A DNA stretch of 25,645 nucleotides from a virus: positions 1-25,645 of IMG/VR virus record IMGVR_UViG_3300037584_006092. One strand, given 5' to 3'. Positions 11,622-14,933 of this stretch are shown here, in pieces. The notes beneath the pieces were generated by a model. That model did not search any database. It was not told the DNA's origin and worked only from the letters and a program-made list of their open reading frames with translations. How positions within the stretch are numbered: the stretch's first letter is position 1; every line of letters begins with the position of its first letter. The translations under genes and the position numbers were made by a program.

Positions 11622-13349
11622 ATGCAGTTAAGAAGTTATCAAATCAAAGCAATAGATAGTCTTAGATATTCTTTTAATACAAAGGGTAAAAAATCTCCTT
11701 TGTTAGTAATGCCAACTGGAGCTGGTAAGACAGTTGTTTTTGCTGCAATATCTAAAGCAATATCACAAAACGAAAAAAATGTATTAATTCTTGTTCATCG
11801 AAGAGAACTGATAGATCAAGCCTCAAAAAAATTAAAAAATATTGGAGTTAATCATGGTGTTATTGCTGCAAAATATAAAGAGTCAACTAACAATATACAA
11901 ATAGCATCAGTACAAACTTTAGTAAGAAGACTTGTAAAAAATACTTTTAATCCTAACTACATTATTATTGATGAAGCACATCACGCAGCAGCTGGAAGTT
12001 GGACAAAGATAATAAATCATTTTAAAGATGCATATAAAATTGGATGTACCGCAACACCAATAAGACTTGATGGCAGAGGACTAGCTGACTATTTCGATGA
12101 TTTAGTAAAAGGCCCTGGAGTGGCAAAATTAATTGATGAAAAATATCTTGCTCCTTATAAAGTATTTGCACCTCCACTAAAAGTAAATTTAGATAAAGTA
12201 AAAACTTTAGGTGGAGATTATCAGAAAAAAGAATTAGAAAAACAAATTGATTCTGCTGACATTATTGGCGATGCAGTTCAACAATATAAAAAACACGCTG
12301 ATGGTTTACCTGCAATTGCTTTTTGTATTTCTATAAAACACGCAACTGATGTTTGTAATAAATTTAAAAATGCAGGTTATAAAGCTGCTATAGTTCATGG
12401 CGAGATGAAGGTCGATGATCGTGATGAGGCGATTAAAGGACTTGGAAATGGAAAAATACAAATTCTTACATCTGTTGATGTCATATCAGAAGGTACAGAT
12501 GTTCCAGATGTATCAGCAGCAATTCTCCTTAGACCAACAAAATCTGAAGGGTTATATTTACAACAAGTAGGAAGAGTTTTAAGACCAAAACCTGATAAAA
12601 CAGCCATAATTTTAGATCATGTTAATAGCACCAGAACACATGGATTTGTAGATGATAAAAGAGAATGGTCATTGCATTCTCAAAAAAAGAAAAAGAAAAA
12701 AGGAGAACTTGCACCTCATGTAGAAACTTGCAAAAAATGTTTTGCTACATATAAACCAACACCAGTTTGTCCTGTTTGTGGATATCAAGCAGAAAATAGA
12801 GAAAGATTTATTAAGCAAGAAGAAGGCGAATTAGAAGAACTTAAGAGAAAAGAACAGCAAGAAACAGAAAAGAAGCAACAAAAACTATTAATAGCAACCG
12901 CAAAAACCTTAGAAGAATTAGAAATGGTTGCAAAAATATTAGGTTATAAAAAAGGATGGGCTTATCGGGTATTTGAGTCTAGAAAAAATAAAGGTGTTCC
13001 AAGATATAGGGCTGCACAATTTAACAACGGCACACGAACTGCATCTTATTTAGGTTTAGATCAGAAAGAAACTATTGCTAAATTATTTTGTTTAAATACT
13101 AAAGCATTTAATAAATTTAAATTTTCCGAAACAGTAAAAGATGGAAAATATACTGCTGATAAAATTTTTAAGTTATTTACAATAAATTCTTCTGATAAAT
13201 GGTTTTTACATAAATCACATAAAAAATGGTTTGCAGAAATGTATAAATATCCGTGGGATAGAGCTTTTATAAATAACTATGTTAAGACAGTTAAAGAACG
13301 AAAAATATTCATAGATCCTAATGATTTCACAGGTCCAATTACTCCATGA
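11622..13349 (+). CDS. DEAD/DEAH-box SF2 DNA helicase with zinc finger
   Basis: 575 aa with a complete SF2 motor: Q-motif-like LRSYQIKAI, Walker A MPTGAGKT (30-37), VHRREL (58-63), DEAH (117-120), CTATP (142-146), VHGEM (258-262), TDVPD (292-296) and arginine finger QQVGRVLRP (314-322). A Lys run precedes a four-Cys zinc knuckle (C370, C373, C383, C386). A coiled Glu/Lys segment comes next, and then a ~170-residue C-terminal domain beginning LEELEMVAKILGYKKGWAYR, seen in phage helicases of this type. Likely roles are branched-DNA remodelling or unwinding in phage replication and recombination. It is the first gene of the rightward operon, with a start near a weak promoter. Its stop overlaps the methyltransferase ATG by 4 nt. 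Confidence 0.88.
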   Translation: MQLRSYQIKAIDSLRYSFNTKGKKSPLLVMPTGAGKTVVFAAISKAISQNEKNVLILVHRRELIDQASKKLKNIGVNHGVIAAKYKESTNNIQIASVQTLVRRLVKNTFNPNYIIIDEAHHAAAGSWTKIINHFKDAYKIGCTATPIRLDGRGLADYFDDLVKGPGVAKLIDEKYLAPYKVFAPPLKVNLDKVKTLGGDYQKKELEKQIDSADIIGDAVQQYKKHADGLPAIAFCISIKHATDVCNKFKNAGYKAAIVHGEMKVDDRDEAIKGLGNGKIQILTSVDVISEGTDVPDVSAAILLRPTKSEGLYLQQVGRVLRPKPDKTAIILDHVNSTRTHGFVDDKREWSLHSQKKKKKKGELAPHVETCKKCFATYKPTPVCPVCGYQAENRERFIKQEEGELEELKRKEQQETEKKQQKLLIATAKTLEELEMVAKILGYKKGWAYRVFESRKNKGVPRYRAAQFNNGTRTASYLGLDQKETIAKLFCLNTKAFNKFKFSETVKDGKYTADKIFKLFTINSSDKWFLHKSHKKWFAEMYKYPWDRAFINNYVKTVKERKIFIDPNDFTGPITP

Positions 13350-14590
13350 CTTTAAAATTACTAGATACATTTGCAGGGATTGGCGGTTTTAGTTACGCTG
13401 CGGAAAAACTTGTAGGTGGATTTCAAACAGTACAGTTCATAGAAATTGATCCGTACTGTCAACAAGTACTAAACAAAAACTTTCCTAACATTCCTATTCA
13501 CGATGACATCACAACCTATAGAGCCGAGCCATATTCAGCAGACATTATCACTGGGGGATTTCCATGCCAAGACATATCAACCGCAGGTAGAAAACAAGGC
13601 ATCACAGAGACTTCAAGGTCTGGTCTCTGGTTTCAACTCATCAGAACCATACGCATGGTACGACCAAAATACTTCATCTTGGAAAACGTATCAGCGATCC
13701 TTAATAACGGATTGGACATCGTTCTCGGAGACATTTTCAAGGCAGGGTACGATGCAGAATGGTGTTGTATTCCAAGCAGCTTTGTTGGAGCTTGCCATCA
13801 AAGAGATCGATTCTGGCTCATCGGATTCTCTCCCGACACCTACAAGAGAAGCTGCTCATCACAGGAACAATGTTCCACCTTCAATAGGAAAGACGAGAGG
13901 TTACGATCTAACAATGAAAATATGCGAAGAACAAGAGAAAGCGGAAATGTTACCGACTCCTACAGTATGCAACGACTCGATGTATTACGACAAGAGTCCG
14001 AACAAAGACAAGAGACACAGCAAGGGACTAGCAACAGAAATAATAGATCGGGAGATGTTGCCGACTCCGACAACAATGGATCATTTAGATCAGAGGAGTC
14101 CAGAAGCTTTAAAAAAACAGATGGAAGGTCCGAGAAAAGGGAGGACATCTCTATCCAATCTGAGGGAAGCAGTAAATCCCAAGACTCAGGAAATATTCAA
14201 CTCTCTTTTACCTACACCGAGAGCAAGCGAACCTGGAAGAACGAATCTAGGTTATGGGGACAATCTCAAGGAGGGGATATGCAAACAGACAGGGATTCCA
14301 ACAAAAAAATATCCGTTGCTTCCAACCCCGACAGCCACCGATTACAAGGGGAGGTCGGGTCAAGGATATATAGACCGACATGGAAAACACAGAATATCAG
14401 ACGTATTAACCCAAACTGGAGACAATATGTATCTAAACCCACGATTCGTAGAGGAGATGATGGGCTATCCAATAGATTGGACGCAAGTCAAAGAGTCCAA
14501 AGATTGAAGCAGCTGGGAAATTCAGTAGTTCCACAAGTTGCAGCTATACCCTTGCAAAGGGTTATACAATTGGAGCGTGAGCAACAATGA
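13346..14590 (+). CDS. dcm: C5-cytosine DNA methyltransferase
   Basis: 414 aa. Motif I DTFAGIGGF (7-15), FIEID (motif II), motif IV GGFPCQDIS with catalytic Cys74, motif VI ENV (113-115) and motif VIII QRDRFW (152-157) are intact. Residues ~165-380 form an unusually long Ser/Arg/Asn-rich, low-complexity target-recognition region with VTDS, VADSD and NPDS repeats. The C-terminal LRR-like closing motifs (TIRRGDDGLSNRLDA, LGNSVVPQ 390-397) return at the end. It transfers a methyl group from S-adenosylmethionine to cytosine C5, typically to protect phage DNA or mark it. Base composition in the long region differs from neighbours (more G+C, unusual codons), explained by a second gene in the +1 frame. 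It is coupled to the helicase (ATGA). Confidence 0.88.
   Translation: MTLKLLDTFAGIGGFSYAAEKLVGGFQTVQFIEIDPYCQQVLNKNFPNIPIHDDITTYRAEPYSADIITGGFPCQDISTAGRKQGITETSRSGLWFQLIRTIRMVRPKYFILENVSAILNNGLDIVLGDIFKAGYDAEWCCIPSSFVGACHQRDRFWLIGFSPDTYKRSCSSQEQCSTFNRKDERLRSNNENMRRTRESGNVTDSYSMQRLDVLRQESEQRQETQQGTSNRNNRSGDVADSDNNGSFRSEESRSFKKTDGRSEKREDISIQSEGSSKSQDSGNIQLSFTYTESKRTWKNESRLWGQSQGGDMQTDRDSNKKISVASNPDSHRLQGEVGSRIYRPTWKTQNIRRINPNWRQYVSKPTIRRGDDGLSNRLDASQRVQRLKQLGNSVVPQVAAIPLQRVIQLEREQQ
13503..14507 (+). CDS. Overprinted +1-frame protein inside the methyltransferase gene
   Basis: A 334-aa frame with no stop lies entirely within the methyltransferase gene. Its sequence is not random: GDFHAKTYQPQ, SSWKT (58-62) followed by TFSRQGTMQNGVVFQ, five LPTP repeats (first at 110-113), and LNPRFVEEMMGYPIDWT (311-327). 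I recognise this order (SSWKT.., SRSGTM.NG, LPTPTA.D repeats, LNP.FVE.LMG.P..WT) from many phage proteins usually annotated as hypothetical or methyltransferase-related. Each block lies opposite a methyltransferase motif: GDFHAKTYQPQ/GGFPCQDISTAG, SSWKT/ILENV, LPTPT/VADSD, and LNPRFVE..MGYP/TIRRGDDGLSN. Either both frames are expressed, or the family partly consists of shadow translations. No ribosome-binding site is evident at ATG 13503. Function unknown. Confidence 0.5.
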   Translation: MTSQPIEPSHIQQTLSLGDFHAKTYQPQVENKASQRLQGLVSGFNSSEPYAWYDQNTSSWKTYQRSLITDWTSFSETFSRQGTMQNGVVFQAALLELAIKEIDSGSSDSLPTPTREAAHHRNNVPPSIGKTRGYDLTMKICEEQEKAEMLPTPTVCNDSMYYDKSPNKDKRHSKGLATEIIDREMLPTPTTMDHLDQRSPEALKKQMEGPRKGRTSLSNLREAVNPKTQEIFNSLLPTPRASEPGRTNLGYGDNLKEGICKQTGIPTKKYPLLPTPTATDYKGRSGQGYIDRHGKHRISDVLTQTGDNMYLNPRFVEEMMGYPIDWTQVKESKD

Positions 14591-14933
14591 AACTAAGCTT
14601 CAACAAGAAATCCGACTTGCAATCGGCAAGATACCAACTCTTCGCCTTTTTCGTAATCAAGTGGGGCAACTTCCCGACCCCAGAACAGGAAGATACGTTC
14701 AGTTCGGGTTAGCTAAAGGTTCTTCTGATCTTATTGGTTTTAAGAAAATAAAAATAACTGAAGATATGATCGGACAAGAAATAGCACAGTTTGTCTCAAT
14801 AGAAATAAAAACAGAAAAAGGCAAACTTACACCTCAACAAAACAATTGGCTTAACTTCATAAATAAATCTGGGGGCATCACAGGAGTAGCCAGAAGCATT
14901 AAAGATGTTTTCAATATTTTGTCCCTAAATTAA
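14577..14933 (+). CDS. VRR-NUC domain nuclease
   Basis: 118 aa from GTG 14577; a TTG at 14538 is possible but runs back into the methyltransferase. The family pattern is clear: ETKLQQEIRLAIGKIPTLRL with FRNQVG, then TGRYVQFGLAKGSSDLIGF. The catalytic FVSIEIKTEKGKLTPQQNNW (Glu-x-Lys) and the closing GGITGVARSIKDV complete it. VRR-NUC proteins are PD-(D/E)XK-type nucleases of phages and restriction systems that process branched or structured DNA; phage members are often stand-alone, like this one. It overlaps the methyltransferase end by 14 nt and precedes the primase-helicase, so it belongs to the replication operon. The Asp of SSDLIGF and the E-x-K pair indicate an active site. Confidence 0.85.
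   Translation: MSNNETKLQQEIRLAIGKIPTLRLFRNQVGQLPDPRTGRYVQFGLAKGSSDLIGFKKIKITEDMIGQEIAQFVSIEIKTEKGKLTPQQNNWLNFINKSGGITGVARSIKDVFNILSLN

Follow-up and report, generated by a model that had tools for sequence, protein, structure and literature searches.

A +1-frame protein nested within a viral cytosine-5 methyltransferase gene, probably the small-domain subunit of the same enzyme

Can one kilobase of DNA hold two parts of a single enzyme in two reading frames? The question is raised by a virus sequence (IMG/VR virus record IMGVR_UViG_3300037584_006092, 25,645 bases, analysed over its whole length and called the window below), in which a DNA (cytosine-5) methyltransferase (C5 methyltransferase) gene contains a second, long open reading frame (ORF). 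We refer to the methyltransferase chain as alpha (f0, frame 0) and to the product of the other frame as beta (f1, +1 frame). A sequence-only reading of this DNA had proposed that the gene is dual-coding; its coordinates and lengths for both ORFs proved exact, and every peptide it quoted was found in the translations:

13346..14590, plus strand: alpha, C5-cytosine methyltransferase ORF, 414 amino acids (aa), motifs I-VIII and X (ORF, Pfam, phrog_363, AlphaFold2 (AF2) model)
13503..14507, plus strand: beta, +1-frame ORF, 334 aa, probable small-domain subunit (ORF, phrog_1008, 117 nested loci, selection)

Judging from sequence comparisons, the locus very probably encodes a nested two-subunit DNA (cytosine-5) methyltransferase, with catalysis in alpha and, in beta, the small domain with motif IX and probably target recognition. 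Alpha and beta are conserved as a pair, selection acts on each of the two frames, the motifs of one complement those of the other, and in single-chain relatives a single frame contains the same parts.

Openness and selection in the two frames

In the window itself, the +1 frame is open beyond chance, as had been suspected. Permutation of the synonymous codons of alpha over the overlap gave a mean of 9.3 +1 stops, while none is observed (0 of 2000 permutations were as low). The reverse permutation, applied to the codons of beta, gave a mean of 20.9 frame-0 stops against none observed, again with 0 of 2000 as low. The overlap has also lost the A/T bias at third codon positions, as the sequence-only reading had noticed: third-position G+C is 0.44, compared to 0.13-0.21 in neighbouring genes.

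Viral contigs were searched with beta alone and with alpha alone, and each search returned loci carrying the pair in the same +1 phase. The window was then compared with 24 relatives, with codons aligned giving equal weight to both frames; the 24 comparisons share one sequence and, hence, are not independent. Outside the overlap, differences at frame-0 codon positions 1/2/3 were.21/.12/.45 and.31/.18/.53, compared to.48/.27/.26 and.45/.26/.29 in the part from 13830 to 14505. Frame-0 position 1 is the wobble position of beta. Since variation moves to this position, beta is the constrained frame in 13830-14505 and alpha follows.

Over the catalytic motifs alpha dominates, and similarity of beta there could be passive; hence, two controls were applied. 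In 105 core codons, the 117 nested loci contain 14 +1 stops where 231 are expected, whereas 109 classical methyltransferases contain 607 (625 expected). Stops in the +2 frame are not avoided (593 versus 566 expected). Many of the nested loci were found via beta and loci inside groups are related; the 17 loci found through alpha alone hold 3 +1 stops versus 33.7 expected. A reverse stop test (0 versus 453 frame-0 stops) is circular, as read-through was required of the loci, and was not used. For the second control, synonymous change at conserved alpha residues was measured downstream of the beta start, where the two frames overlap, and divided by that upstream of it. Nested loci with an internal beta start have a ratio of 0.76 (0.70-0.83), classical genes one of 1.01 (0.97-1.06), and loci in which beta covers the entire core, such that both parts are overlapped, one of 1.10 (0.98-1.25). 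The slowdown is the pattern expected if beta were translated from its start onward, and this check, which had been proposed beforehand, points to purifying selection on beta.

The sequence-only reading had left two outcomes: either both frames are real, or a large set of database proteins is a translation artefact. According to the latter explanation, the +1 frame is untranslated, and it would stay open and conserved only as a by-product of the constraint acting on the methyltransferase. It would agree with the lack of any Pfam or NCBIfam family for beta, with the beta start in the window, which has no clear Shine-Dalgarno sequence or ribosome-binding site, and with the failure to find a stand-alone beta in viral contigs, genome contigs, phages, plasmids or searched genomes. 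Such stand-alone members had been named as worth looking for, but in the scanned collections all members lie inside methyltransferase genes. However, a by-product would not place the variation at beta wobble positions in the middle and C-terminal part, nor slow synonymous sites only where beta overlaps, nor remove +1 stops far beyond the needs of protein sequence and codon usage, which happens neither in classical methyltransferases nor in the +2 frame. We consider an artefact extremely improbable; codon positions, synonymous sites and stop avoidance together support two real frames. The confinement to methyltransferase genes was one half of what, according to the sequence-only reading, would undo it; the other half, free gain of stops without selection, is contradicted by the data.

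Division of the enzyme's parts between two chains

Alpha matches Pfam DNA_methylase (PF00145) with an E-value of 3e-43 and TIGR00675 with 131 bits (cut-off 100.65). It carries the motifs of the catalytic protein of a C5 methyltransferase, i.e., I, IV (PCQ), VI (ENV), VIII (QRDR) and X, but a pattern search detected no in-frame motif IX. In this it departs from PF00145/TIGR00675 enzymes, which have motif IX and a target-recognition domain in one chain. Residues 1-165 and 380-413 are confident in the AF2 model, most of 204-375 falls below 50 in predicted local distance difference test (pLDDT), and the Foldseek match to M.HhaI covers about 172 of 327 residues, corresponding to the large domain. 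Therefore, judged by the model, alpha seems to lack a folded small domain. Its parts are:

13370..13390, plus strand: motif I FAGIGGF, S-adenosylmethionine (SAM) binding (translation; conserved columns F9, G11, G13, G14)
13553..13579, plus strand: motif IV GGFPCQDIS with the catalytic Cys (translation; invariant G71, P73, C74, S78)
13679-13690, plus strand: motif VI LENV, facing SSWKT of beta
13796..13816, plus strand: motif VIII HQRDRFW (invariant H151, R153, R155)
13955..14470, plus strand: linker, approximately residues 204-375, mostly with pLDDT < 50 and predicted to be disordered
14447-14473, plus strand: RRGDDGLSN, read under the motif-IX-like block of beta
14513..14536, plus strand: motif X LGNSVVPQ (invariant G391, N392; confident helices 380-413 in the AF2 model)

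The blocks of the +1 frame are as follows:

13500..13514, plus strand: internal ATG of beta within CACGATGACATCA, in the HDDI codons of alpha (sequence and context in relatives)
13674..13688, plus strand: SSWKT block, opposite LENV of alpha (W60 and T62 nearly invariant)
13737..13763, plus strand: SRQGTMQNG block, over the motif VII-VIII region of alpha (G82 and G87 nearly invariant)
13830..14333, plus strand: LPTPT/LPTPR repeats at 13830, 13950, 14058, 14208 and 14319, a putative target-recognition region of variable length
14433..14483, plus strand: motif-IX-like block LNPRFVEEMMGYPIDWT, over RRGDDGLSN of alpha (hhalign)

Beta matches phrog_1008 (“DNA methyltransferase”, 329 positions) with an E-value of 9e-30, and the final positions of this family match motif X of alpha, a first hint that beta belongs to the same enzyme. 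In hhalign, the C-terminal block of beta aligns in register with classical motif IX (probability 72%, E-value 3e-5); the frame-0 reading of the same block reaches a probability of 0.2%. Since beta aligns with motif IX, which alpha lacks, the two proteins are most likely one enzyme, and the “unknown partner” of the sequence-only reading is known in kind. The oppositions which it described (SSWKT/LENV, LPTPT/VADS and MGYPIDW/RRGDDGLSN) hold, but VADS is no methyltransferase block: frame-0 readings of 220 LPTP sites show this low-complexity sequence to be a shadow of the LPTP repeats of beta. A sequence search of the PDB with the beta profile gave nothing relevant, and in a Pfam scan of beta and its split and single-chain relatives no domain extended to the motif-IX-like block.

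Alpha-core loci were sampled from about 150 genomes in each of four phyla and from eight further genomes in which a copy was already known; the sample includes some places reached earlier via beta. By pattern, none of the 16 nested loci has an in-frame motif IX, which is present in 59 of the 115 loci without beta (the regular expression is strict and misses some classical enzymes). None of those 59 carries a +1 copy. Thus, nested beta and in-frame motif IX exclude each other.

How the parts are distributed differs among relatives. In mycobacteriophage mcgavigan (L061) and Gordonia phage Gudmit (L062), a single frame contains motifs I-VIII, then LPTP repeats, an MG.P/MM.P..W block and motif X; L224 and L248 have this layout without LPTP repeats. 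The LPTP/MG.P.GW region of single-frame relatives accordingly lies between motifs VIII and X. Motif X is found in alpha in 112 of the 117 nested loci, in beta in four and in another ORF in one. Exactly those four with motif X in beta (L043, L055, L051, L066) have an alpha ending after motif VIII. Thus, every part of one enzyme is always there, and only its assignment to a frame differs. The layout of L043 is also that of phrog_1008, which ends in motif X; in the window this part belongs to the other frame.

L145, L155 and L163 are arranged differently: motifs I-VIII share their frame with the motif-IX-like block, and a third frame holds motif X. It resembles a one-base shift between core and C-terminal block, which may be an artefact of sequencing or a genuine alternative split; L145 and L163 are among several loci taken from metagenome assemblies, which can contain one-base errors.

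Both proteins might be made without beta being part of the enzyme, i.e., beta might be a regulator or an unrelated overprinted phage protein. The N-terminal part of beta, which has no recognisable fold, would suit this idea. However, such a protein would not be expected to hold the motif-IX-like block missing from alpha or to take over motif X where alpha loses it, and repeats and a motif IX of the beta type occur inside the single-chain methyltransferases L061 and L062. We judge a role outside the enzyme to be very improbable.

The preferred two-subunit enzyme can be compared with characterised ones. M.HhaI and M.HaeIII share the catalytic domain fold and motifs I-VIII with alpha; both are monomeric, and their single chain, unlike alpha, also includes the small domain and motif IX. 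A closer likeness is M.EcoHK31I (YGGCCR; Lee, Kam and Shaw 1995), whose small subunit is reportedly encoded out of frame inside the gene of the large one. In the window and its relatives the beta ORF is nested out of frame, and motifs I-VIII and X are separated from motif IX. This is the same split as that of M.EcoHK31I, likened here by anatomy from its description and not by sequence homology: of its two polypeptides, the large one has motifs I-VIII and X and the small one motif IX only (PMC3404938). In the window, it is the beta frame that is conserved between motifs VIII and IX, and alpha's reading of this region is predicted disordered. A search of E. coli plasmids did not find the sequence of M.EcoHK31I; the three small restriction-modification or methyltransferase plasmids that were checked carry classical enzymes, whose motif IX is in frame. 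In M.AquI (CYCGRG), a second polypeptide carries motif IX and the target-recognition part (PMC3404938). L043, L066, L051 and L055 are similar to it in that motifs IX and X are both in their second ORF; in contrast, the window keeps motif X in alpha, and beta is nested in alpha over 1 kb.

Several points weigh against a two-subunit enzyme, besides the beta start of the window already mentioned. The alignment of beta with motif IX comprises 20 columns only. AF2 modelled beta alone poorly (mean pLDDT 58, 85 sequences), and this model, for which Foldseek gave no fold match, was not used as evidence; a poor model fits a subunit that would fold with its partner, but proves nothing. Further, the predicted target-recognition domain of M.EcoHK31I was placed in the large subunit (PMC3404938), whereas the present reading puts it in beta.

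Production of two proteins from one gene

In nested loci of the window type, an ATG is present near the column of the beta start in 43 of 63 cases, compared to 23 of 106 classical genes. At 27 loci, the ATG of beta follows 4 nt after the alpha start in the form (A/G/T)TGAATG, usually behind one Shine-Dalgarno sequence. In such tandem-start loci (L054, L096, L104, L085 and 23 others) the alpha start varies between ATG, GTG and TTG, and the ATG of beta is constant. By its sequence, one site may start both subunits there.

Programmed frameshifting could instead yield one chain, read in frame 0 to motif VIII, in +1 for repeats and motif IX, and in frame 0 again for motif X. The order of the parts matches that of a single-chain C5 methyltransferase, and single-frame relatives exist. 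However, each molecule would need two opposite shifts. Frame 0 is open throughout the middle in 113 of 117 loci, although permutation of the beta codons, carried out for ten loci, would lead one to expect about 10-21 frame-0 stops in each. Further, selection on the +1 frame already acts about 110 codons before any junction, and beta often has its own ATG behind the shared Shine-Dalgarno sequence. Frameshifting, therefore, appears very improbable.

Two separate proteins would work as follows. One mRNA would give both by separate initiation. Alpha comprises motifs I-VIII, which make up the catalytic domain with its SAM-binding site, then a linker of low complexity and the helices of motif X; beta comprises an N-terminal part over motifs IV-VIII of alpha, the variable LPTPT repeats and motif IX. 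Beta would dock onto alpha as the missing small domain and probably provide recognition of the target sequence. With this enzyme, the phage would modify its own DNA, probably against host restriction.

Spread, annotation and genomic context

Scanning genome contigs with the beta profile yielded 80 loci; going by the titles of their records, these come from about 15 phyla. They show the same nested phase, except for rare one-base shifts and contigs too short to tell, and all 80 have a methyltransferase in the other frame where the contig extends far enough. The kind of enzyme is already known, but we did not find described its spread over about 15 phyla, the evidence for selection, the single-frame and split relatives, or the variable region in beta; no paper presenting the nested arrangement as widespread was found in a partial coverage of the literature. 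We think it reasonably likely that, in many phages and about 15 bacterial phyla, a large class of C5 methyltransferases has its specificity subunit encoded out of frame inside the catalytic gene, with LPTPT repeats setting the target and the N-terminus of beta selected atop the catalytic motifs over deep time. If true, many annotated “DNA cytosine methyltransferases” would be inactive alone, target predictions from the annotated chain would be wrong, and the annotated gene cloned in isolation (e.g., recoded) would give an inactive enzyme. Among same-strand gene overlaps in bacteria, this one would rank with the longer and more widely conserved, and it would offer a tractable natural system for asking how two mutually binding proteins evolve locked in one DNA sequence.

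The overlap is hidden because annotation pipelines keep one frame. In an E. coli PT62 prophage (L281, 1201-1938) alpha only is annotated, and in a Pseudomonas and a Vibrio phage (L056, L057) beta only, as “hypothetical protein”. In Mycobacterium phage Llama (L052; likewise Seabastian, OfUltron and Ochi17), a one-base shift relative to SG4 (L053) cuts both frames at one and the same point, and annotation lists the pieces as two “DNA methylase” genes. On a Citrobacter freundii plasmid (L285, 2833-3843), a nested methyltransferase of greater divergence is found, with a +1 open frame of 241 aa containing PTPTAS.

In the window, the nested locus is surrounded by structural, recombination, helicase/primase and ligase genes. 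The methyltransferase ORF shares ATGA (13346-13349) with the upstream helicase and is followed by a VRR-NUC nuclease ORF (14538-14933); the helicase overlap and the downstream VRR-NUC ORF suggest a single operon with the methyltransferase.
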